This document shows, in pieces, positions 3,271-43,300 of a stretch of 64,000 nt of DNA. Position numbers and translations under genes: made by a program. Numbering within the stretch: the first letter of the stretch is position 1; the number at the start of each line of letters is the position of its first letter. A model generated the notes under the pieces. The model searched no databases. It worked only from the letters and a program-made list of their open reading frames with translations, and was not told the DNA's origin. This DNA comes from Calditrichota bacterium (lineage in GTDB: Bacteria; Calditrichota; Calditrichia; Calditrichales; J004), in assembly GCA_024277115.1 (NCBI GenBank), contig JAJRVW010000052.1, positions 1-64,000 on the forward strand, read 5' to 3'.

Positions 3271-4029
3271 TTATTTCTCTGTCATATTTTTAATTTTACT
3301 CAAAAAGGGTGTAAACAGCTCCAGCGGCAATGGGAAAATAGTTGTCGTGTTTTTCTCGGCACCCACCTCGACCAGAGTTTGCAAGAAACGAAGCTGCAAG
3401 GCCGATGGTGACTCATCAATTTTTTTGGCCGCTTCGGTTAATTTACCTGCCGCCTGAAACTCACCCTCCGCCGCGATGATTTTAGCCCGGCGCTCCCTTT
3501 CTGCCTCGGCCTGCTTGGCCATGGCGCGTTTCATTTCTTCGGGCAAATCGATGTGTTTAATTTCTACTAACGAAACCTTTATGCCCCAGGGATCGGAATG
3601 TGTATCAATAATTTTTTGTAGTTGATGGTTGATCCTTTCACGTTCCATCAAAAGTTCATCCAGTTCTACCTGCCCTGCGATACTCCTTAAAGTTGTTTGC
3701 GCCAGTTGCGAGGTGGCAAACAGGAAATTCTCGACATCCACCACCGATTTTGTTGGATTGACAACCCGGAAATAAAGCACCGCATTTATTTGAAGCGAAA
3801 CGTTGTCTTTGGTAATCACATCCTGCGGTGGCACATCCATTACAATGGTCCGCAGGCTAACCTTTACCATTTTATCTACCAGAGGAATTAATAAAATGAT
3901 ACCCGGCCCTTTGGACTCAATAATACGCCCAAGACGAAAAATCACCGCGCGCTCATATTCCTTTAAAACACGTACCGCGCTTACAATAAGCAAAATTAAT
4001 AAGACTAATATTGCAAAATAAAATGGCAT
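3271..4029 (-). CDS. Slipin / SPFH (band 7, stomatin-like) membrane protein
   Basis: A 252-residue stomatin/prohibitin-homology protein. One N-terminal membrane anchor (about 2-18) is followed by the SPFH core: [37 protein letters not shown] and then the helical [16 protein letters not shown] segment that drives oligomerisation. The ATG at 4029 is chosen over the in-frame TTG 12 bases upstream because GGAGG lies six bases before it. It follows the nfeD gene in the same direction (130-bp gap). In known pairs the NfeD protease acts on or with the slipin, and the partners are thought to organise membrane microdomains. Confidence 0.93.
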
Positions 4030-4159
4030 TTTAACCTCCAAAATTTATAGATAATTGTATTTTTTCCAACAGATGTAATATAGCCCTATACTGTTGGCGC
4101 CTTATTTTAAGAATGATGCTTGCCGGATAACAACCGGGGAGAACCTGTCCGGAGATTCA

Positions 4160-5449
4160 TTATACCGGCCTGACTTTTATAGTTAAATTCTCACCATTAT
4201 ATTCAACCACTTCAACCGGGCTACCTTTTTTAACCGTTTCATCAGCGCGGGCTGTCCATATTTCGCCATGTACCCGAACGCTGCCTTCAGGATTTAATTT
4301 TTTAGTGACAACGCCCTTTTCGCCGATCAGCCCCTCCCGGCCGGTGGTGGGTTTTGCTTGCTGGGCTTTTAAAGCAAAACCCAGGGCAAACACAAAAAAG
4401 AGGGTGGTAAGCACAACAATACTTGTAATCACCTGCCAGGAAATCTGCAACTCCGGGATGGGCGAATCGACAAGCATTACCAAACCGATTGAAAGGGATA
4501 AAACACCGCCTATGGTTAGGATGCCGTAGCTGGGAACTTTTATTTCCAGCAAAAACATTATCATGGCCACAGCGATTAAAAAGAGGCCGGCATAATTTAT
4601 TGGTAAAACATCCAGGGCGTACCAAGCCAGGATAAGGGAAATACTTCCTGCTACACCAGGGACAATTGTCCCTGGATTATAAAGTTCCAACATAATGCCT
4701 GCCATGCCGATCATCATTAAAACGGCGGCAACTTGGGGGTTTAAAATGGTATCAAATAATTTTTGACGCCAGGTCATTTCCGTGGTAATAATTGTGGCAT
4801 TTTTGGTATGTAAGATTTTTTCCGTTCCATTATCCAGCTTAATTGTTTTTCCATCAAGCACGGCAAGAAGCGAATCAGCAGAAGGGACAATATAATCGAT
4901 CACATTCATTTTTAAAGCTTCCTGCTCGGTAATATTGGCGCTTTCCCGCACAGCCTTTTCCGCCCATTCCGCATTTCTTCCGTGCCGCTCTGCCGCCGCT
5001 TTTATTTTGGCCACGGCATCATTGGTCACTTTGTCCATCATTATATCGGTCGTGGTGGAATCCATTTTATTTTCCCCACCACCAAAAACAGGATGGGCCG
5101 AACCAATATTTGTGGACGGCGCCATCGCGGCAATGTGCGCCGCATAGGTAATATAAACCCCGGCCGACCCGGCACGTGAACCGGAGGGCGAAACATAAAC
5201 GGCAACAGGCACCGTGGCGTTTTGGATATCCTTCATAATATTATGCATGGATTCCATTAATCCGCCCGGTGTATCCAATTCGATAATCAACAGTTGGGCA
5301 TTGGCTTTTTCGGCCTCAATAATTGCGTTTTCGATGTATTCTTTTGCAATCGGGTTAATAACGCCATTAATAATAATTCTGTGGACTTCAGTTCCAGCAA
5401 ATACATGCAGGACAAATAAAAGGGAGATGGCTAAAACGAGTCTTTTCAT
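4160..5449 (-). CDS. nfeD: NfeD-family membrane-bound serine protease (ClpP class)
   Basis: About 429 residues. A signal peptide (1-19) leads into a ClpP/SppA-like protease domain with LDTPGG (59-63) and the nucleophile context SRAGSAGVYI (Ser95), followed by four or five membrane helices (roughly 245-370). It ends in an OB-fold NfeD domain beginning EGLIGEKGVV. This is the long, protease-containing NfeD type. The open frame extends 20 codons further, but I start at 5449 because MKRLVLAISLLFVLHVFAG is a clean signal peptide and GGA lies nearby. It pairs with the slipin gene just downstream; divergent from the MutS-like gene. Confidence 0.92.
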   Translation of the reverse strand: MKRLVLAISLLFVLHVFAGTEVHRIIINGVINPIAKEYIENAIIEAEKANAQLLIIELDTPGGLMESMHNIMKDIQNATVPVAVYVSPSGSRAGSAGVYITYAAHIAAMAPSTNIGSAHPVFGGGENKMDSTTTDIMMDKVTNDAVAKIKAAAERHGRNAEWAEKAVRESANITEQEALKMNVIDYIVPSADSLLAVLDGKTIKLDNGTEKILHTKNATIITTEMTWRQKLFDTILNPQVAAVLMMIGMAGIMLELYNPGTIVPGVAGSISLILAWYALDVLPINYAGLFLIAVAMIMFLLEIKVPSYGILTIGGVLSLSIGLVMLVDSPIPELQISWQVITSIVVLTTLFFVFALGFALKAQQAKPTTGREGLIGEKGVVTKKLNPEGSVRVHGEIWTARADETVKKGSPVEVVEYNGENLTIKVRPV

Positions 5450-5658: not shown

Positions 5659-7479
5659 ATGGAACGTGACACGCTACTAAAACGGCAAATTAACCGTTTA
5701 TCCGAAACAGAAAAAATATATAAAAAGATCAGCCAAAACTATTCCTGGGTACGGCTTGCTTCGGTGCTTGCAGCTATTGTGATTGGTATGTTTGCCATTT
5801 TCCAGAAAAGTAACCTGCTTGCCGCATCGGCCATCGCAGTTGTATTTTTTGTATTTGGCGGCCTTACAATTTTTCATGCGCGGGTAAAAAAAACGCTAAT
5901 AAATTTTGCAAAACTTATTTCCATTTATAGGCAACACCAGGCACGATTAAACCTGAATTGGGACAAACTACCGGAAAATAAAACAACATTCCCGGAAAGC
6001 CATCCTTATGGATTTGACCTTGACATTTATGGCCCTTTTTCACTGCAACGCCTGCTCGACCAATGCACAACAGTTCAGGGCAGTAAAATCCTGGAAAACT
6101 GGCTTTTGAAACCGGAGCTTGATCCAACAAAAATAATTGATCGGCAAAAAAAGGTTAAAGAGCTTTCTGGCCTCTCCCTGTTCCGCAACAAATTATTACG
6201 GCTCGACAGCGCGGGGCCCGTTGATAAAACGGATACCAGGCAAATTTTAAGTTGGCTAAAAAACATGAAGCTGCAAACAAAAGGGTGGCTCCCAATTGTC
6301 CTTTCAACTTTGGCAATAACAAATATTGTGCTGTTTTTCCTTCATCAAAATGCACTGATCGGCCCTCTCTGGTATTTTTCTTTTACGGCTTATGTTTTAA
6401 TCCATTTAGCCGCCCAGATGAATATAAACCGGTTTTTCTCTGAAGCAATCGAACTGGCAGAAGACTTAAGGCGCATATTTAAAATATTTAAATACATAGA
6501 ATATTTTTCATTTTCACAGGCGCGGCAACTACAGGAAATATTAAAACCAATCCAGCAAAAAGAGAGTAAACCGTCAACCCTTTTTAAAATGTTAAACCGC
6601 AATATTGCAATGATCGGCCTCCGCATGAATCCAGTAATGGCCATTATTCTCAATATTTTTCTTACCTGGGATTATCTTGTTGCATTCCGATTAAAAAAAG
6701 TCACAAACTCTTTGCAAAATAGCGCGCCAGCGTGGTTTGAAGCCTGGCACGAAATCGATGCGCTTTCTGCTCTGGCGCAGTTTTACTGGCTTAACCCGTC
6801 GTATGTTTTTCCGGAAATAAGGGAATCAAATACAAATTTATATTTTGAAGCAAAACAATTGGGGCACCCGTTAATCGCGCAGCATATCCGCAAGAGAAAT
6901 GATTTTAATATCAATCCGGAGAACCAGGTAAATATTATCACAGGTTCAAATATGTCCGGTAAAAGTACCTTCCTGCGTACCATCGGGATAAACCTGACCC
7001 TTTCCTATGCCGGCGCGCCCGTCTGTGCGGAACACTTAAATACACGCCTTTTTAAGCTCCATTCGTGTATCCGCATAAATGATTCGCTTTCTGAAGGCCT
7101 CTCCTATTTTTATGCCGAAGTGCGGCGGCTAAAAGAAATATTGGAGGATGTCAAAAACAATCAAACAACACCGGTCCTATTTTTAATTGATGAGATTTTT
7201 AAAGGAACCAATAACAAGGAACGGCTTATTGGCAGCCTCGCCTATATAAAAGAGCTGGCATTAAAAAAAGGCATCGGGCTGGTTTCCACACACGACCTCG
7301 AACTTGTGATGTTGCAAGAGGAAGTGGAAAACTTAAAAAATTTCCATTTCCGGGAAGATATAAAAGAGGGTAAAATGGTTTTTGATTATCAGCTACGGCC
7401 CGGCCCATCGCCAACTACAAATGCTTTAAAAATAATGGAACTGGAGGGGTTACCCATTCAAGTGAAGAGTGGAGAGTGA
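5659..7479 (+). CDS. Membrane-anchored MutS-related ATPase
   Basis: 606 residues. The C-terminus is a MutS domain V ATPase: P-loop TGSNMSGKST near 429-438, the SLSEGLSYFYAEV loop, Walker B VLFLIDEIFKGTNN near 506, and STHDLEL. The N-terminus lacks the mismatch-reading domain I and instead has two hydrophobic hairpins, about residues 32-72 and about 209-252. A DNA-clamp-like helical core lies between them and the ATPase. Such proteins are common in Bacteroidetes relatives and are annotated as mismatch repair proteins, but the missing mismatch domain and the membrane segments make classical repair unlikely. No clear ribosome-binding site precedes the ATG. The stop codon lies inside a heptamer repeat. 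Confidence 0.9.
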   Translation: MERDTLLKRQINRLSETEKIYKKISQNYSWVRLASVLAAIVIGMFAIFQKSNLLAASAIAVVFFVFGGLTIFHARVKKTLINFAKLISIYRQHQARLNLNWDKLPENKTTFPESHPYGFDLDIYGPFSLQRLLDQCTTVQGSKILENWLLKPELDPTKIIDRQKKVKELSGLSLFRNKLLRLDSAGPVDKTDTRQILSWLKNMKLQTKGWLPIVLSTLAITNIVLFFLHQNALIGPLWYFSFTAYVLIHLAAQMNINRFFSEAIELAEDLRRIFKIFKYIEYFSFSQARQLQEILKPIQQKESKPSTLFKMLNRNIAMIGLRMNPVMAIILNIFLTWDYLVAFRLKKVTNSLQNSAPAWFEAWHEIDALSALAQFYWLNPSYVFPEIRESNTNLYFEAKQLGHPLIAQHIRKRNDFNINPENQVNIITGSNMSGKSTFLRTIGINLTLSYAGAPVCAEHLNTRLFKLHSCIRINDSLSEGLSYFYAEVRRLKEILEDVKNNQTTPVLFLIDEIFKGTNNKERLIGSLAYIKELALKKGIGLVSTHDLELVMLQEEVENLKNFHFREDIKEGKMVFDYQLRPGPSPTTNALKIMELEGLPIQVKSGE

Positions 7480-7508
7480 AGAGTGAAGAGTGAAGAGTGA
7501 AGAGTGAA
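7474..7508. repeat. Tandem heptamer GAGTGAA x5 over the stop codon of the MutS-like gene
   Basis: Five perfect head-to-tail copies of GAGTGAA run from 7474 to 7508, preceded by degenerate copies from about 7461. The gene's TGA stop (7477-7479) is inside the first perfect copy. The unit is not a multiple of three in total effect, so changes in copy number would shift the frame only if they happened before the stop. Confidence 0.85.
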
Positions 7509-7532
7509 AATTAGTTAAAAAAATGTACCAAA

Positions 7533-7733
7533 TTAAACAATAGCTAAGTCATTAAACAACTTCTTTGAAACCAAGGCAATTTCATCAACGGCTTTTTCAA
7601 AGGCTGCTTCATTTTTTCTTGATGGTTTGCGGTAGCCACTGATTTTACGAACAAATTGCAAGGCTGCATCCTGCAATTCCTGCTCAGTTGGATTGCGATC
7701 CTCAAAACGTAATTTCTTTATATTTCTGCACAT
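7533..7733 (-). CDS. DUF2277 family small protein
   Basis: A 66-residue protein beginning MCRNIKKLRFEDRNPTEQEL and continuing LQFVRKISGYRKPS and NEAAFEKAVDEIA. This is the full-length pattern of DUF2277, a small cytosolic family of unknown function with a strictly conserved MCRNIK start. It converges on the MutS-like gene, 53 bp apart. Confidence 0.88.
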   Translation of the reverse strand: MCRNIKKLRFEDRNPTEQELQDAALQFVRKISGYRKPSRKNEAAFEKAVDEIALVSKKLFNDLAIV

Positions 7734-7825
7734 ATTTTTTCCAATAAATTTTATTAATTATACCCATTATGCGAATTAGCCAGAATAGAAACAAAATAAT
7801 TTCAATTAAATTCTTACAACAGGCC

Positions 7826-7918
7826 GCTCCGATGGAGCTTATTTTAAACCATTGGGATTATCATACTACTACAAATAAACTGTCCTTACAGGACTAAATA
7901 AAAAATTCCAATAGGAAT
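7826..7918. repeat. Cluster of three short hairpins (interspersed repeat type)
   Basis: Three compact palindromes stand in a row in the AT-rich gap between the DUF2277 and SDR genes: GCTCC-GAT-GGAGC (7826-7838), GTCCT-TAC-AGGAC (7882-7894) and ATTCC-AATA-GGAAT (7905-7918). Each has 5-bp arms and a 3-4 base loop. The spacers share ACTACAAATA/CTATTTGTAG-like words (7868-7878, 7921-7931), and TTACTACACAAAT follows at 7950. This arrangement resembles a hairpin-plus-spacer repeat that I recall from other FCB-group intergenic regions. The rest of 7734-8005 shows nothing coding. Confidence 0.6.
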
Positions 7919-8005: not shown

Positions 8006-8794
8006 CTAAAGCGTTCCCGCGTACAACCCACCATCTACCGAGATAGTTGTACCGGACATATAACCCGCCTTGCCCGATGCCAAAAATGTAATCAGCGCCG
8101 CTAAATCCTCCGGCTCACCAATCCGGCCAACCGGAATATTCTGGCTCCATTCATTAAGAACATCTTCCCTTTTTTGTCCTTGCTCCACTCTATTATCAAT
8201 AATTCGTTCCAGCCCATCCGTTAAATGGTAACCCGGCGCCACATTATGTACCGTAATCCCATATTGCCCTAACTCTCGTGACAACGTTTTTGCCAAACCA
8301 ACCACGGCAAGGCGAATAGAATTGGAATAGACCAGACTTTCGATGGGCGCTTTTACCGATGATGAAGTGATGTTAATAATCCTGCCCCAATTATTTTGTT
8401 TTAGAAAAGGCAAAGCCGCCTTTACAGCACGTACAACACTCATAAAAGTTAAATTATACCATTTCAACCATTCATCATCCTGTGATTGTTCAAAAGTTGC
8501 CACAAGCGGGCCACCGGCATTATTGACCAGAATATCAATCGTGCCCCATCGGTCTACCACATTTTTTATAAACCGGTCAATGTCCTCCTTCTTTCCCACA
8601 TCAACCGCCCTGCCTAAAACAGCCGAACCGCTTATGGCTTCAATTTCCCCTGCAACCCGTTCAATTTTTTTCGCATCCCGGGAACAAATTGCCACCCGGC
8701 ACCCTTCTTTTGCCAAAGCTAACGCGGCAGCCTTGCCAAGCCCTTTGCTTGCCGCAAAGACAATCGCCACTTTGTTTTTAATTTCTAAATCCAT
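8006..8794 (-). CDS. SDR family oxidoreductase with atypical active site
   Basis: A 262-residue Rossmann-fold short-chain dehydrogenase/reductase. The cofactor loop is ASKGLGKA, followed by NNAGGP, the NITSSS strand and the C-terminal YMSGTTISVDGG. Where the family has YxxxK, this protein reads SNSIR: aligned on the following VVGLAKTLSREL helix, Ser replaces Tyr and Arg replaces Lys. A subfamily with an LxLSNxxR motif is known, so the change is probably an inherited trait and not damage. The start has GAGGGA upstream. The substrate is unknown, and catalytic competence as a dehydrogenase is doubtful. Divergent from the AtuA-like gene across 400 bp. Confidence 0.9.
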   Translation of the reverse strand: MDLEIKNKVAIVFAASKGLGKAAALALAKEGCRVAICSRDAKKIERVAGEIEAISGSAVLGRAVDVGKKEDIDRFIKNVVDRWGTIDILVNNAGGPLVATFEQSQDDEWLKWYNLTFMSVVRAVKAALPFLKQNNWGRIINITSSSVKAPIESLVYSNSIRLAVVGLAKTLSRELGQYGITVHNVAPGYHLTDGLERIIDNRVEQGQKREDVLNEWSQNIPVGRIGEPEDLAALITFLASGKAGYMSGTTISVDGGLYAGTL

Positions 8795-9194
8795 AATTCC
8801 CTCATTTTTTAAAATAGGCGGTAATAAAAAGTACTTTGGTTCCGATAAATTATTTTCTGTGTTTTCAGGCCAAAACTCTCATTATCATGCCAATCAGAAG
8901 GAAGCGTCCCATCAAATCTAACAACCATGGGATTCTTCGTTTGAAAGACAACTCAGAATGACAGGATTTTTAATTATTTAGATCACAACCATATATTGTT
9001 TTTAACTTTGCGTCTCTGCACCTATGCGGCTTATAAATTGCCCAGGTTGGCTTAGATATCAAAATCAATAAAAATATAAATACATCAAAACCACTTTTAA
9101 GTATAAAATAGATTTTGTAGTTTTACCAATCAATTGTTCCAATATTTTAAAACTAAATTAACTGAATATTCGGGAAAGAATTACCGGAGAATAA
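8795..9194. other. 400-bp divergent intergenic region
   Basis: No gene seen. It must hold the promoters of the SDR gene (minus) and the AtuA-like gene (plus). It contains copy 2 of the GTCAT...GCATC-type element at 8930-8964, and is otherwise AT-rich without an obvious structured RNA. A clear Shine-Dalgarno (GGAG) stands just before the AtuA-like start. Confidence 0.6.
8930..8964. repeat. GTCAT...GCATC interspersed element, copy 2 (degenerate)
   Basis: Reads GGATTCTTCG, then a short variable middle, then CTCAGAATGACAGG. This is the reverse orientation of the element at 2152-2183, with GATTCTTC in place of GATGCTTC. Confidence 0.4.
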
Positions 9195-35644: not shown

Positions 35645-36690
35645 TGCAACACCGATTGTTAAAATGGTTTCATCAAAACAAGCGCGACCTGCCCTGGCGT
35701 ACAAATCCAAGCTGGTATAAAACATTTTTGTCGGAAATAATCCTGCAACAAACAACCGTTGCGCAGGGCTTGCCCTATTATCAAAAATTTATTCAACAAT
35801 ATCCTGATATAAAATCCCTGGCCAAAGCCGATGAACAGTCGGTCCTGCATCTCTGGGCCGGGCTGGGTTATTATTCCCGAGCGCGCAACATGCTTAAGGC
35901 TGCAAGGATTATTTATACCGAGCATGACGGAGTCTTCCCCCAAGACTATAAAACTGCCCTTGCATTACCGGGGATTGGCCCTTACAGCGCCGCGGCGATT
36001 TTATCCATTTCATACAATCTGCCCCATGCCGTAATTGATGGCAATGTCATCCGGGTAATTTGTCGCTTATACGCCATCAAAGAAGATACGCGGGAAAAGA
36101 ATACTTTAAACCGCATAAAAAAGCATGCCACTAAATTATTGGACAAAAAAGCACCGGGAGATTTTAATGAAGCCATGATGGAGCTTGGCGCCACAACGTG
36201 TACACCGCGTCAACCATTATGCCAATCGTGCCCAATAAATAGATTTTGCATCGCATACAAAAAGAACCTGGTCATTAAAATCCCTTATAAATCCAAACCG
36301 GCCAAAAAGAAAAAATTAATCAATCTTGTTGGTGTGATAAAAAATAAATCTCAGATTTGTATTATGCGTCGGCCGGATTCTGGTTTGCTTGCAGGGATGT
36401 GGGAATTTCCAATTTTGGAGATTAGAGACTGGGATAATTTAGATATACATTACGACCGGTTTAAATCACGATTTGAGTTGACCGGTCAGTTAGGAATAAT
36501 TTCAGAAGAAATGCGCCAGATATATAGCCACATCGATCTGAGGTTTAAAGGTATAATTCTTAACACCGCCAAAAAATCAATCCATAAAAATGATTATGTG
36601 GATGTGAAGTGGGTGGATTTTTCAGAATTAAAAAATTATGCAATACACAACGCACACAAAAAGATTATCGCCTGGCTGGCCGATCAATAA
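35644..36690 (+). CDS. mutY: A/G-specific adenine DNA glycosylase MutY
   Basis: 348 residues from the ATG that overlaps the PhoH stop (TGATG); the frame itself runs 24 codons further inside PhoH and is not used. Catalytic Glu31 lies in SEIILQQTT, the helix-hairpin-helix is LPGIGPYSAAAI (109-120), and Asp132 is in VIDGNVIRV. The 4Fe-4S cluster ligands are C186-x6-C193-x2-C196-x5-C202. The C-terminal NUDIX-like domain (about 220-345), with MRRPDSGLLAGMWEFP, recognises 8-oxoG. It removes A mispaired with 8-oxoG. Ends in a 7-bp convergent overlap with the patatin gene. Confidence 0.96.
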   Translation: MQHRLLKWFHQNKRDLPWRTNPSWYKTFLSEIILQQTTVAQGLPYYQKFIQQYPDIKSLAKADEQSVLHLWAGLGYYSRARNMLKAARIIYTEHDGVFPQDYKTALALPGIGPYSAAAILSISYNLPHAVIDGNVIRVICRLYAIKEDTREKNTLNRIKKHATKLLDKKAPGDFNEAMMELGATTCTPRQPLCQSCPINRFCIAYKKNLVIKIPYKSKPAKKKKLINLVGVIKNKSQICIMRRPDSGLLAGMWEFPILEIRDWDNLDIHYDRFKSRFELTGQLGIISEEMRQIYSHIDLRFKGIILNTAKKSIHKNDYVDVKWVDFSELKNYAIHNAHKKIIAWLADQ

Positions 36691-39332
36691 TTAAAACCGA
36701 GGGAAAGGTAAAAATTTTCCCTGCCCAAACTTGCCTTGCCCCAACCCAGATAGAGCGGGCCGAGAAAAGTATCCACGCCAAAATAGCCACCAAAACCGGA
36801 GAAAAAATCCTCGGATTTAGTGATCAGGTTTGGGCTTTGCCAAATCGCCCCAAGATCGTAGCGGACGGAGAAATAGGTATCGGTAAGTTTTTTAAAAGGC
36901 AATTTATAGCGATATTCAAAATTTGTAAGGATCACTTGCTTCCCAAAAAATTCGTTATCCAGCAAACCATAAAAACTGTGCAACCCGCCAATCCTAAAAT
37001 TCTCTGAGAAAGGCAAAGACTCATCACCAAGCCCACCTAAAAGACGGACATGCCCGATATGGCGAGAATTAAAAAGCCTGTAATACCCTTCTAAATTTAT
37101 GAGTACTTTTGTGTACGATTCCTGACTGTTAAGTAGAAAACTATTGCCGTTTTCCCAGGCCCAATGATTAAAAACCCCTTTTGTCGGGAAATCGATACGG
37201 TCGCGTTTATCCGTGATCGAACGTAAGGCAAAGGTACGCAACTCAAAATCCTGTGGTTTCACAAAACGTCCTTCTTGCTGGAAATCCTTCACCCGCTCAA
37301 TACGTACCTCACCCACAAGCTGGCCGATACGCGCTAATTGCTGACCAAGCTGCAACCTAAAGCCAAGCCGTTCTTCCCGGTATTTGCCCTTAAGCGGCGT
37401 ATCTACTTTAAACGGGTTAATCTCCCAGGTAAAGTAGGTTTGGGCGGAAAGGGTCAAAAACGATGTAAAAATTCTGTCGTTGCGAAAGCTGAACCCGAGC
37501 AAACCGTCTTGAACACCCAGGCGTGTTTGTAGTTTCAGTTTTACACCTTTGCCCATAAAATTCTCATCGGCCAGCTCCATATAGCCCTGAAAATTCCGTT
37601 CAATATCGGCCTTGCCCCCAACCTGAAAACGGATGGACGGTTTTTCGTTTACCCGGATAGTTATGTCGGCCTTGCGGTCATGGCGTAAAATATCGGCGCT
37701 AACCCGGCTGTAAAGCGAGCTGGCATAGACATTATCAATACCCCTTTTTACAGAGAGCCAGTTAAAGGCTTTATTTTTTTGCTTGGAAAACTCACGCAAC
37801 ACTAAAAAATCTTCTGAGACTTCATTGCCTTTAACATCAATTTTTTCGATAATACCTTCATTGATTTTAAAGGAAAGCATACCATTTTTTTTATTAAAAA
37901 AGACAGCATCAAAGGTCATTAATGAAAACCCACGCTTACGATATAAGTTTAAAATTGAATGCAGGTCTTGCTGTAATATTTTTGCATTTAGGGCATGGCC
38001 TTTTTTTGAAAGCAACGAACCCCTAATCTCTTCTGTAGTTAAGTTGGTGTTTCCCCGAATCAAAATTGTGTCAATTTGCCCAAATACTTTAAAATCCAAT
38101 GTTAAGCTTTTATTTACCGTATCAACAAAAGCCGATACCTTTTTATAAAGCCCGGTTGCCATCCATTTTTTAATAGAATCCGCCAGACAATTTGTATAAA
38201 TATATTTTACGCCAGAGCTATCGGCCCACACATTAAGATGAGCGTTAACCAATTTGCCGGCCTTGGAAATTTCCAGGTTTCTAAATACAATTTGTCTTGT
38301 TGCGAGATTATTTGTACTACGCAATCTGTTTTGCAGGGAATCAATTTTTAGCTCCGTCGCCCTTTGCCCGGCTAGGATCATTGAATCGATCTTTGAGAAA
38401 TCTGTATTGGTCACTTTGGGGATTTTTGGCAGGATTAATACATCCACATTTTTATGCTCTTTTAGATTATTTCGATTGGTCATAATAGTGGTAACTTGAT
38501 CGGCAACTTCCCAAGGGGCTTTGATCTGGTCCCGGCTGCGCAAAGTGGCGCTAACATCCGAAGCAATAATTAATTCCATGCCCAGATCGCGGGCCACGCC
38601 AACAGGTAAATTGGCCTTGATGCCGCCATCGACCAAAAGCATGCCGTCGCGACTAACCGGCGAGAATAATAGAGGTACTGCCAGGGAGCCGTTCAGGGCT
38701 TCAGCAATATTTCCATCTGCAAGTACGCACATGTTGCCACTTACAATATCTGTGGCAACCGAGCGAAACGGGATTTTAAGGTCATCAAAATTATCTTTTA
38801 CCTGGTACGGCGCCATTAAAAACAAATCGGATAAAATATTAAGGACTTTTTGTCCCGGCGTAACAGCATTGGGGATATAAGGCTTAAAATTTTGCAGGCG
38901 CAGCGAAAGCAAAAAACGGTCCTGCTCACTTTTCTGTCCTAAAAACATCGAGGTGCGTTGAGGGGCATCGCTAAAAATATCAGCCCAATTGATTGATTTT
39001 GTAATTTCCTCAATCTCATTTGGCGAATAACCGGCGGCATACAAGCCGCCCACAACCCCGCCAATGCTGGTGCCCACAATTAAGTCCGGCACAATGCCCA
39101 GACTATCCAACACTTTAATCACTCCAATATGCGAAATCCCGCGCGAACCGCCGCCACTTAATACGAGGCCAATTTTGGGTTTCTGCGGCAGATTGGAAGA
39201 TTGAATTGTAGAAATTTTCCCGTCCTTAAGCAAAATCTCAGAACTATATTCCTGTGCCGTTAAAACACTGAAAAGTGAGAAAATGAAAATTAAGATATAT
39301 TGAACAGAGATATTTAGTTTTATAAAAGGCAT
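36684..39332 (-). CDS. Patatin-like phospholipase with POTRA and outer-membrane barrel
   Basis: 882 residues. A signal peptide (about 1-26) precedes a patatin domain with the oxyanion loop SGGGSRG (59-65), nucleophile GTSIG (Ser89) and DGG (Asp235). Then come POTRA-like segments (about 410-560; RGNTNLTTEEIRGSLLSKKG, IDVKGNEVSEDFLVLREF) and a 16-strand barrel of the BamA/Omp85 surface-antigen type (about 580-882) ending in an aromatic YLSLGFNY. The layout is that of type Vd secretion proteins (PlpD-like), in which the lipase is exported through its own barrel; Bacteroidetes homologues may keep the lipase inside. The catalytic dyad is intact. Confidence 0.92.
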   Translation of the reverse strand: MPFIKLNISVQYILIFIFSLFSVLTAQEYSSEILLKDGKISTIQSSNLPQKPKIGLVLSGGGSRGISHIGVIKVLDSLGIVPDLIVGTSIGGVVGGLYAAGYSPNEIEEITKSINWADIFSDAPQRTSMFLGQKSEQDRFLLSLRLQNFKPYIPNAVTPGQKVLNILSDLFLMAPYQVKDNFDDLKIPFRSVATDIVSGNMCVLADGNIAEALNGSLAVPLLFSPVSRDGMLLVDGGIKANLPVGVARDLGMELIIASDVSATLRSRDQIKAPWEVADQVTTIMTNRNNLKEHKNVDVLILPKIPKVTNTDFSKIDSMILAGQRATELKIDSLQNRLRSTNNLATRQIVFRNLEISKAGKLVNAHLNVWADSSGVKYIYTNCLADSIKKWMATGLYKKVSAFVDTVNKSLTLDFKVFGQIDTILIRGNTNLTTEEIRGSLLSKKGHALNAKILQQDLHSILNLYRKRGFSLMTFDAVFFNKKNGMLSFKINEGIIEKIDVKGNEVSEDFLVLREFSKQKNKAFNWLSVKRGIDNVYASSLYSRVSADILRHDRKADITIRVNEKPSIRFQVGGKADIERNFQGYMELADENFMGKGVKLKLQTRLGVQDGLLGFSFRNDRIFTSFLTLSAQTYFTWEINPFKVDTPLKGKYREERLGFRLQLGQQLARIGQLVGEVRIERVKDFQQEGRFVKPQDFELRTFALRSITDKRDRIDFPTKGVFNHWAWENGNSFLLNSQESYTKVLINLEGYYRLFNSRHIGHVRLLGGLGDESLPFSENFRIGGLHSFYGLLDNEFFGKQVILTNFEYRYKLPFKKLTDTYFSVRYDLGAIWQSPNLITKSEDFFSGFGGYFGVDTFLGPLYLGWGKASLGRENFYLSLGFNY

Positions 39333-39438
39333 TTTAAAATTTTTAATTTTTGTTGTGGGGCAATGTACGGAATAATGCAGATTGGTTTCAAAAATAGCTT
39401 TAATTTTTATTTTGCTTCGTGCTAAGTTCTTTAAAATA

Positions 39439-39661
39439 ACATGAGTTCGATATAAAACTTTTGCATTGAGAAAATTATTTTAACTCTAAGTTAGGGATAT
39501 AAAAACAACTCACCCCTAAACAGTTTCTGCTGATTTTTAAGTTTTTCAAGTCCCCTCTGCTTATTGAAAATCCCGAGTATCGGGGCAAGAGAGGGGATTT
39601 AGGGGTGAGTTCCAAAAAAAAGTATTCTAAAAATAAATGTTTTCTTTAGATCGAACTCAGG
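39439..39661. mobile_element. 223-bp MITE-like element with 8-bp target duplication
   Basis: The left end is (A)CATGAGTTCGAT and the right end, in reverse complement, CCTGAGTTCGAT: 11 of 12 bases match, with looser symmetry further in. Directly outside both ends is TTAAAATA (39431-39438 and 39662-39669). The intact DUF4175 copy has this word once at 40415-40422 without an insert, so the empty site is visible in the same window. There is no coding capacity. A second dyad (39507-39611) is nested inside. The parent transposon is not present here. Confidence 0.85.
39507..39611. repeat. Nested 105-bp inverted repeat inside the MITE
   Basis: Arms AACTCACCCCTAAA (39507-39520) and TTTAGGGGTGAGTT (39598-39611) are perfect over 14 bp. 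Inside are TCCCCTCT/AGAGGGGA (39551-39558, 39590-39597) and a small CCCGA-GTA-TCGGG hairpin (about 39572-39584). It may be an element inserted in the MITE or an integral part of it. Confidence 0.75.
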
Positions 39662-39793
39662 TTAAAATAGGCTTCGATCAACTTTTGGTAATCGCTGTGG
39701 TAGCCCTCGCTTAAGGCTTTTTTGCAAGCAACCTGCGATTGTTTAATTTAAATATTTTAAACCAACAAAAAAAGCAACCCAAAAGTTTCAATG

Positions 39794-39822
39794 TTGACAT
39801 AAGGTGTACAACGCCTTATTTT
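39794..39822 (+). promoter_or_regulatory. Toxin-antitoxin promoter with embedded operator palindrome
   Basis: TTGACA (39794-39799), a 17-bp spacer and TATTTT (39817-39822) form a promoter-like pair. The 17 bases 39801-39817 (AAGGTGTACAACGCCTT) form a palindrome with seven pairs, one being G-T, around ACA. The palindrome fills the spacer, as expected for an autoregulating CopG/ribbon-helix-helix repressor site. The toxin ATG is only seven bases past the -10, so the mRNA would be nearly leaderless. Confidence 0.6.
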
Positions 39823-39828
39823 TAATTT

Positions 39829-40110
39829 ATGGAAAAATTTAAATGGAATATCGAGAAGAATGAAAAACTTGATAAAGAACGGGGAATAACATTTGAAGAA
39901 GTTGTACAAAAGATTGAGTCCGGGACAAGGGTTATTGAAACTGATCATCCAAACAAAGAAAAATATCCAAATCAAAAAATTTTAATCGTGGAAATAAATC
40001 AGTATGCATACTTGGTACCATTTGTAAAAGAGAATGAAACCATTTTCCTAAAAACAATTATACCAAGTAGAAAAGCTACAAAAAAATACTTAGGCGGGAA
40101 AAATGAATAA
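39829..40110 (+). CDS. BrnT-like toxin of a type II toxin-antitoxin system
   Basis: 93 residues: FKWNIEKNEKLDKERGITFE at the start, EHPN-like TDHPNKEKYPNQKILIVE, then YLVPFVKENETIFLKTIIPS and RKATKKYL at the end. This is the RelE-like ribonuclease fold of the BrnT group in its FCB/proteobacterial variant, which ends in PSRKATKKYL. BrnT toxins cleave mRNA and stop translation. No Shine-Dalgarno is seen. The gene overlaps the antitoxin gene by eight bases and is much richer in AT than its neighbours. Toxin-first order is typical for brnTA. Confidence 0.8.
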   Translation: MEKFKWNIEKNEKLDKERGITFEEVVQKIESGTRVIETDHPNKEKYPNQKILIVEINQYAYLVPFVKENETIFLKTIIPSRKATKKYLGGKNE

Positions 40111-40387
40111 AAACCAAAAAGATATAAAATTAGATGAATATGAAAAAGAAATATTAGAAGCGTTTGAAGAAGGGAAACTTGAACCAAATAAAAGTGATAC
40201 AGATTTCCAAGCTATTGCCCGTAACACCCTAAAAAAAAACCGGAAAATAAATATCAGAATTACGGAGAATGACCTTTTTGCTTTACAAAAAAGAGCCGCA
40301 CGGGAAGGTTTACCCTATCAAACATTAATTGGCAGCATCCTTCATAAATATGTCAGTGGCTTTTTAAAAGAAACTTCTAATCCCTAA
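40103..40387 (+). CDS. CopG-family antitoxin
   Basis: 94 residues. The N-terminal part (DEYEKEILEAFEEGKLEP) binds the toxin in this family. The C-terminal part is a ribbon-helix-helix DNA-binding domain: KINIRITENDLFALQKRA, EGLPYQTLIGSILHKYVSG. It neutralises the toxin and represses the shared promoter. The ATG lies inside the toxin's last codons with GGCGGG before it, so antitoxin translation should be stronger than toxin translation. Its stop overlaps the stop of the convergent DUF4175 gene. Confidence 0.85.
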   Translation: MNKNQKDIKLDEYEKEILEAFEEGKLEPNKSDTDFQAIARNTLKKNRKINIRITENDLFALQKRAAREGLPYQTLIGSILHKYVSGFLKETSNP

Positions 40388-43300
40388 TTCTTACCTTGCT
40401 TCGCACTAAGTTCTTTAAAATAGGCTTCGATCAACTTTTGGTAGTCGTTGTAGTAGCCCTCGCTTAAGGCTTTTTTTAATGCTTCCCGGATTTGTTTTTG
40501 CGACATGTTTTCAAAATCTTTTAACTTACCAGGGTCTTTGGCAAAATATTTTTTGGCCTGTTCCGCTTTACGCTTTTTAGAAAACTCCCGTTCACGTACC
40601 GATTTTTGGGCATCAAGCATCCGGGATAAAATTTGCTGCTGCCGGTTAATTGTTTTACGGTTTACATTATTGGCCAGCATATCCTGAACGATTTCGTCCA
40701 TCTGCTCGCCCATTTCGTTTAAGCGCCCTAACATATCAGAACGGTTGCCCATTTGGTCGGCCATTTCCTGCATGCCCTGCTGGATCGCTTTTTGCTGTGC
40801 GGCCAATCTTTTTGCCCCGGCTTGTTGCTGCATGGACATCTGTCCCTCCTGGCCCTGGCCTTGCATAAAGTTCATCGTTTCGCTGTTTAGGCTGCCTTGC
40901 GCCCCGGCCATTTGTTTTAGCTGCTCCATAAACTGTTCGAAACCCGTCCCTGATTGTGAACCGGACATTTGCTGCATCGATTTTTGCATACTGCTAAGAC
41001 CACGGTTTAAAGCGGCCATTGCCCTTTGCTGATCGCCAGCAGCTTGTGCATTGCGCCGCTCGCTCAAGCCTTCCAAACTTTTTTGCATACTGTTTTGTGC
41101 ATTGGCCATATTTTTACTCATATCCGGGTTTAAGAAAAATGTCTCTTTGGAGAGTTGCACAAGATCAGAAATAAGTTTTTTTAAATTCTCCTGCAAATGA
41201 GCCTGCTTTCGGGCAGCCTGTTTAATGTCATCGTTTAGCTGGGAGGCTTGTTTTGTTTCTTTTTGGATGCGTTCCTGTTCATAAGAAAGTTTAAGCATTT
41301 TTCGCGTGGCTGCCAGCATTTTCTTTTCAACATCCTGCTTATTTTGTTGCTTCAGGTTTTGCATGGCCTGGTTTAGGTTTTGCTGCATTTCCTGAAAAGA
41401 CTTTTGCATATTTTGCGATTTTTTACCCGCTTGCTGCATATCTTTCTTTTGCATATTTTGCTGCATCCGGTCCATTTCTTCCTTCAGGTTCTGCTTGTTT
41501 ATTTCAGATTTGGTTTGCTGCAACTTGTCTTTTGCCGATTGAAATTTTTCCAACTGCTCTTTTTTAAGAACATCCTCCAGATTGCGTTTAAGTGCGCTAA
41601 GTAAGTCCTCCTGTTGCTTTTGCTCCGTTTGCAATTGTTCGACGCTTTGCTTGTCCTGGTCTTGTGCCTCTTTCAAGGCATTGCTAATTTTTTTCTGGTT
41701 CTCTGCCAGTTTTTCGGCCTGTTGCACCAATTGGTCCATTTGCTGCTCTAACTGAACTTGTTTAAATAGCTCCAAAGTCCGCTCCAGGTTGGCCTGAAAC
41801 GCTGCCTGGTTATTCTTAAAATTCTCCAGGGCTTTTTGGACTTCTTTTTGGCTTGTACTTTCCATGGCTTGCTCCAGCTTCTTCATTGCTTCTAATAACT
41901 CAGGGGTGGCTATTTCCTGAAATAAGTTTTGAAGCTGGCTGTATTTTTCCATAATCTCCGGGTTCATCAAACTATTTTTATCCAGCTTTTCGATCATTTC
42001 TTCCAGTTCTTGCTGGACTTTTTCAATCTTCTCCTGTGCTGCTTTTTGCTGTTCGAGACTATTCTCAATTTGTTTTTTCAGCTCCCAGTCCATCTTTTCC
42101 GTACGTTTTAATTCACGGTCAATTTCATCCAATTTTTGTTTTAACTCTTCAGATTCTTGTACAACATCCTCGAGGTCATCAACTTTTTCCTGTTCGCTTT
42201 CGGTAAACTCATCAAATAATTCCGTAAGCGATGGAAAGGTTACCCGGTATATCGGACTTTCGGATTTTGAAAATCCCCCAACTGCATTATTATCAATTGC
42301 TACGGCAAAATACTCCAATGCATCACCGTAACCCACATACATTTTTGTAAAGTCAAAATAATCCCGAATTTCAAGTTGGGCTTTATTGGCCACAAAACCG
42401 TCTAAATCCAAACGCTGCCACAAAGTGTCCGAAGAACCACTATTTTTTAAATACCGGAAATTTATAAAAACATTCCTCAAACCATAATCATCCGCCGCAT
42501 TAACTTTAAGGCCCAATATATCTTCCAGTTGCGCTTCCACATCTTCGCCAGGCTCCACAATATCTACATACGGCGGGTTGTCCGGCAGAACCGTGACCGT
42601 GTATGTAATTGGATTGCGATTTTGCAGGTTTTCCAAATCGACTAAATTAATTTTATAAGATTGGGTTTTTAGGATGTTAAACTCTCCGGTGGCCAATTTC
42701 CCTTTTGTGCGTAAAAAGAGTGTATCCAAATCACTGAAAGTTATATAAGCTGATTGCAAAGATTTATTTGCCGAAATTTTGAATTTTATTTTTGAGCCGG
42801 CAAGACACGTTATATTTCCATCATTTAGCTCATTTTGGGCCGTTTTTTTCCGGCTGTAAAATGGTGGCTCCATTTTAAGTGAAAGGTCTTGTACCTGCGG
42901 CGGAACCAACACACTTATGTGATAAGTCTCAGAAACAAGCTTTCCGGAGAGTTCATTTTTGGTAACTGGGATAGCAGAGAAGGCATAGGAGAAGGGGACG
43001 AGAATTTCTTTAAGGCGTGTACTGTATTTCCCTTTTCTCTTCTCCAGATTAATTTTTCGGATTGCGCCTTTTTTCTTTTCAGAAAAAATATACATTTCAA
43101 TTTGTGTGGCATCCGGGCCTGTATAATCCACCACAATATCCAATGCCTGCTTTTGCAGAATATCTTTATTGCCCGGCAAGACATTAAAATGAAAGGCGGG
43201 TATTCTTAAGTAATCTTTTGAGGGATTTAGAAGGCGCATACTGGAAGTTGACAGCTCGCCCCATTGAAAAACAATAAGTACAAAAGCACTCAAAAAAACG

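Follow-up and report, generated by a model that had tools for sequence, protein, structure and literature searches.

A predicted toxin-antitoxin pair between two ends of a DUF4175 gene in a Calditrichota bacterium, and similar footprints at other genes of the Caldithrix class

It is still unsettled by what route chromosomal toxin-antitoxin pairs pass from one genome to another when no mobile element carries them. The window analyzed here, a stretch of 64,000 nucleotides from a Calditrichota bacterium of the Caldithrix class (GCA_024277115.1, contig JAJRVW010000052.1), raises this question at the end of a DUF4175 gene. A predicted toxin-antitoxin pair on the plus strand is convergent with the DUF4175 gene on the minus strand, and a second DUF4175 end is located beyond the upstream region of the toxin (Table 1). 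The question is how the pair arrived there and why the gene end occurs twice. The material throughout was genome sequence, much of it from draft assemblies.

Table 1. Features of the DUF4175 locus in the window
Feature	Position	Strand	Basis
Patatin-like gene, old downstream neighbour of DUF4175	36684..39332	-	Pfam Patatin, POTRA, Omp85; adjoins DUF4175 in most relatives
Displaced DUF4175 end, last part, stop codon TAA	39401..39438	-	Repeat comparison
MITE-like repeat inside the displaced end, flanked by TTAAAATA	39439..39661	.	Inverted ends; ~30 related genomic places; ends of other copies
Displaced DUF4175 end, upstream part	39662..39723	-	Repeat search; its initial 8 nt repeat the MITE-like element's target duplication
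Toxin upstream region, with TTGACA element	39724..39828	+	Comparison with upstream regions of homologues
BrnT-like toxin (predicted), 93 aa	39829..40110	+	ORF; PF04365 30.7 bits, below cut-off of 34.5; 81% identical relative in G020
CopG-type antitoxin (predicted), 94 aa, stop codon overlapping the DUF4175 stop	40103..40387	+	ORF; PF12441 25.1 bits, below cut-off of 28; homologues toxin-paired
Intact copy of the DUF4175 gene end, stop codon TAG	40384..40477	-	Direct repeat with relic
DUF4175 gene, intact, 1128 aa	40384..43770	-	ORF; Pfam DUF4175 30.8 bits, above cut-off

The toxin and antitoxin genes overlap and are arranged in the order usual for the family, and their homologues are paired in other genomes. 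Both scores are below the cut-offs of the Pfam families BrnT_toxin and CopG_antitoxin, and the order and overlap would fit a BrnT/BrnA-type pair. The two genes are predicted to form a toxin-antitoxin pair. A TTGACA element of the same kind was found upstream of many homologous pairs. The inserted unit consists of these two genes only, a cassette of about 0.65 kb.

The repeat search recovered both blocks of the duplicated end, in agreement with the earlier note, which had placed the last ~30 codons of DUF4175 twice in direct orientation around the pair. Positions 39401-39438 match 40385-40422 (87%), and 39662-39723 match 40415-40476 (95%, 62 nt); the 62-nt self-match by itself has an E value of ~1e-20. 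When the DUF4175 protein was used as query, the relic also appeared as a second, weak match on the contig. With the gap in the relic bridged, 9 of 93 nt differ from the intact end, and identical stretches of 24 and 29 nt are common to both. All of the differences are transitions, as had been noted, and the earlier count of 84 matches in 92 bases with eight differences is corrected by one. Four differences leave the amino acid unchanged and five change it, which is too few to separate allelic divergence from decay of a formerly identical copy.

The relic is indeed in two pieces, and the break between them belongs to a separate event. The 223 bp at 39439-39661 have inverted ends and an apparent 8-bp flanking duplication, as read from the sequence, and about 30 related places, some split or partial, were detected in the same genome. 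Therefore, the gap is attributed to a later insertion of a MITE-like repeat and not to the toxin-antitoxin insertion.

DUF4175 was present in 42 of 60 relatives, including all but one of the listed genomes of the Caldithrix class, and the patatin gene follows it in most loci with sufficient flank. The earlier note had expected a single DUF4175 end in relatives, and this was found in all 29 loci with flank; none of the 29 showed a second end downstream, and thus none carried two ends without the pair. The only other genome of the same genus (G001) lacks the pair at DUF4175, but a different gene lies there between DUF4175 and the patatin gene (L010 4876-6000), so that this is not a clean empty site, and none is known. 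In view of this other gene, the interval may be a hot spot for insertions.

The two ends were compared with that of G001. At the nine differing positions G001 agreed six times with the relic and three times with the intact end; the GYHSDYQ of G001 is preserved in the relic but reads GYYNDYQ in the intact gene. By these six of nine differences the intact, functional end appears to be the more derived copy, a polarity given by one relative that differs by ~25% of nucleotides over the gene end. A more derived functional end suits an incoming allele better than the decay of a useless copy. The closest pair, with the 81% identical toxin, is in G020, which has no displaced end. No donor genome, with the pair directly behind DUF4175 and no relic, was found.

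The earlier note had also proposed to look for further toxin-antitoxin pairs that lie between copies of the end of a neighbouring gene. This search was positive, at trpA, an adenine-deaminase-like gene, a quinone-reductase-like gene and a gene for a 481-aa protein. In G009, trpA has an end of its own, behind which come, in order, a convergent pair, a second gene end, the pair once more and a third end. The 797-bp unit is thus present twice without a single difference, while 20 of 123 nt differ between the outermost ends. The middle end shows a single switch from the sequence of the outer copy to that of the inner copy, and it is the product of recombination between the flanking ends. Only one trpA per genome was detected in the other genomes searched, and the nearest relatives of the G009 trpA were at most 57% identical.

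In the adenine-deaminase-like gene of G009 the displaced end is ~125 nt; a gap of Ns in the contig lies inside the gene end and was bridged via the flanking match. In G036 a RelBE-like pair (L262) separates the last 24 codons of the quinone-reductase-like gene from a second copy of them, and in G038 the last ~28 codons of the 481-aa protein gene recur beyond a HicB-like region (L306). The displaced end of L306 (2283-2372) still joins the next gene as TGAATG. Three further cases are less regular. The displaced pieces are truncated at a glycosyltransferase/epimerase-like gene of G019, which has a homologue in G016, and at a permease-like gene of G026, and in G001 it is the start of a regulator gene that occurs repeatedly, in three copies. 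These truncated relics and the repeated gene start do not fit the simple donor-entry scheme proposed below unless extra steps are assumed.

The homology of the displaced ends has a sharp edge. Over the 45 nt up to the end of the stop codon, the five complete 3'-end cases together matched at 196 of 225 nt, while in the 30 nt beyond it the match was at chance (43/150), with identical runs of 0, 0, 1, 2 and 1 nt past the stop. The stop codons differ in three of the five cases (TAG/TAA, TGA/TAA and TGA/TAA) and agree in those of G036 and G038. Two alleles, the incoming one with the cassette directly behind it, would explain both the sharp edge and the differing stops. Why the cassette should start right at the donor stop codon is a point for which such a model gives no reason.

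On balance we consider it somewhat more probable than not that the pair arrived with a donor allele of the gene end, one side being integrated by a crossover within that end and the other by an illegitimate join. The unit would have consisted of a donor DUF4175 3' end joined to the BrnT-like/CopG pair. After its entry into the genome, the crossover would give the resident gene the donor end. The far side of the unit, ~100 bp upstream of the toxin, would be tied by the illegitimate join to a site within the gene end, so that the resident end would be displaced and remain with its old neighbour on the patatin side. By this best explanation the last ~31 codons of the intact gene would be the incoming copy. 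The earlier reading, in which an integration renewed the gene end with a diverged copy brought in from outside, is thus supported by the single ends in relatives, the more derived intact end and the homology that stops at the stop codon in five cases.

In its simplest form this entry would take one (Campbell) crossover with a circle of ~0.75 kb; the same product would result if a linear fragment bridged two sister chromosomes. In an E. coli search for homology-facilitated illegitimate recombination, mostly single crossovers were recovered, in which a circle that had lost part of its homology left 109-950 bp of the lacZ end duplicated (PMC3240628). There, as here, a homologous crossover on one side leaves the target gene end duplicated, but the system was a laboratory plasmid, whereas the present cases are natural, small, at many genes and associated with toxin-antitoxin pairs. 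In pneumococcal transformation, tandem duplications arise via interchromatid integration (PMC3784515), which by analogy offers a linear route to a similar end product. A ComEC match in the genome of the window also counts for this reading. The DUF4175 gene would stay unbroken throughout, and the addictive nature of the pair may favour its retention. With two ends flanking the pair, recombination between them could duplicate the unit in tandem, as at the G009 trpA, or release it as a circle for further transfer.

The rival that survives best, although we regard it as rather unlikely, is a long target duplication, in which some transposition-like process duplicated ~100 bp of a single target and the two ends, identical at first, diverged later; the gene would stay intact only where the duplication included its whole end. 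Duplications of this order have been described for restriction-modification genes (PMC3874152, PMC1643837), and several toxin-antitoxin loci of the class lie between non-coding repeats (157 bp, 96% at L261; 112 bp, 92% at L302). A copied piece of target should extend into non-coding DNA and share its stop codon, whereas the homology of the five complete cases always ended with the stop codon, and in three of them the stop codons differed. The edge and the differing stops therefore disfavour a duplicated single target. Moreover, of the two copies in the window it is the functional one that is more derived. Plain long target duplication thus fits less well than the entry of a donor allele.

Replacement of a gene end with displacement of the old one is a hallmark of prophages and islands with integration sites at gene 3' ends, such as phage 21 and e14 at icd, which bring their own gene end and displace the old. 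This counts for a site-specific integration with the gene end as attachment site and the recombinase acting in trans, and 11 tyrosine-recombinase matches were detected elsewhere in the genome. We nevertheless consider this improbable. A search for tyrosine recombinases (PF00589) gave no match on the contig, and so none in or beside the inserted unit, no common junction motif was evident by eye, the target genes are many and different, and the lengths of homology vary. The sequence CAGGTT, which occurs close to the start of the relic both in the window and at trpA, was considered as a junction motif and rejected, being absent by eye from the adenine-deaminase case of G009 and from the G019 case. 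The lack of an integrase and the small cassette were as the earlier note described them; the likeness it saw to integrase-driven integrative elements was not borne out, and such prophages and islands, which also displace an old gene end with an incoming version, carry an integrase that the two-gene cassette lacks. Finally, a pair inserted between tandem paralogues, the second of which was later deleted except for its end, would likewise predict homology ending at the stop codon and differing stop codons, but it is very improbable, as each of five different genes would have had to possess a tandem copy and then lose all but ~75-125 nt of it by deletion, while no second end was found downstream in the 29 DUF4175 relatives and only one trpA in each other genome searched.

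The BrnT-like pairs and the RelE/ParE and HicB loci of the class were compared by a common test, which asked for two repeats on either side of the locus that match each other at E up to 1e-5 across a gap of at most 1.4 kb. Short direct repeats spanned 23 of 114 toxin-antitoxin loci of the three families, the window counted among them and the trpA case missed. The same was true of 6 of 600 random blocks (Fisher, 1e-14) and, in longer sequences surrounding such loci, of 3 of 284 other blocks (Fisher, 7e-11), with control blocks unmatched for accessory-gene content and toxin-antitoxin loci partly non-independent. Among the 23, L291 (by its ends) and L253 (by pattern) were integron-like, and some others were dispersed or non-coding repeats. 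The enrichment is therefore real but mixed in cause, because some repeats are integron-like or non-coding and the loci are not fully independent.

Among more distant homologues (80 loci from many phyla), tight flanking repeats were found at 5 of 68, compared with 0.8% of shifted blocks; these include an integron-like array (L074) and apparent dispersed repeats (L084, L112). A protein test of the distant homologues gave no clear displaced coding end, except perhaps at L090. This locus of a betaproteobacterial MAG carries a second copy of the final 7 codons of a thiL-like gene on the other side of a BrnTA-like pair (3428-3460 and 4159-4192, 33-34 nt, 94%), perhaps the same footprint outside the class.

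The closest known process is the insertion of restriction-modification genes with long, variable target duplication, as far as it is related in later papers (Nobusato et al., 2000, via PMC1643837, PMC3874152, PMC3031569). In both, direct repeats of roughly 100 bp (93 nt in the window, likewise in the further cases) enclose a small addictive unit that has no mobile element of its own and that could be amplified in tandem. They differ in cargo, here a type II toxin-antitoxin pair and no restriction-modification system, and in that the repeats of the five complete cases are coding gene ends that break off at the stop codon and represent differing alleles. In openly licensed papers no report was found of such a footprint for toxin-antitoxin pairs, nor of stop-codon edges. 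The footprint is regarded as a new form of the restriction-modification long target duplication. Homologous entry at the gene end is better supported than membership in any family. If the footprint is a general one, some of the 'long target duplications' of restriction-modification genes might themselves be allelic replacements.

Similar footprints with three toxin-antitoxin families in related bacteria suggest an entry route that does without an integrase of its own. A wider proposal is a tentative one and rather doubtful: that recombinase-free toxin-antitoxin units land at conserved gene ends carrying a copy of the target end, enter by homologous recombination, restore the gene and leave the old end behind, as a general class of integrase-free mini-elements across unrelated toxin-antitoxin families, at least in the Caldithrix class. 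The displaced gene end would be a fossil from which one can read where the unit entered, in which direction, and how far its donor had diverged. Should the footprint prove general, it would provide a signature that can be searched in any genome and a testable homologous route that keeps the target gene working.

Integron cassettes with toxin-antitoxin pairs also place a pair between direct repeats, and the genome of the window contains an integron-like array of small genes with repeated TAAC...GTTAGC sites, one holding a BrnT/BrnA-like pair (L063, G000:C192, 1-3040). The repeats of the window differ in being coding gene ends, and a simple, crude pattern test for attC-like sites was negative for them. 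No other displaced coding end was detected in the 746 kb of this genome sampled; of its close repeats, those inspected were REP/RAYT-like loci, and the rest looked dispersed or paralogous. REP-like repeats flank genes that by eye look like RAYT transposases at L203 (7483-8364) and L207 (1129-1814).

Several minor observations were made at other loci. Next to the trpA array, L054 contains a 429-bp direct repeat (98%, 7456-7883 and 8595-9023), in which the end of a 218-aa gene is repeated beyond a dinB-like N-terminal fragment. At L306 the displaced end may, through the retained TGAATG junction, still supply the ribosome-binding site of the next gene. At L226 (1468-2912) an antitoxin gene of the same family occurs without its toxin and is followed instead by a 363-aa ORF that by eye is possibly Fic-like.
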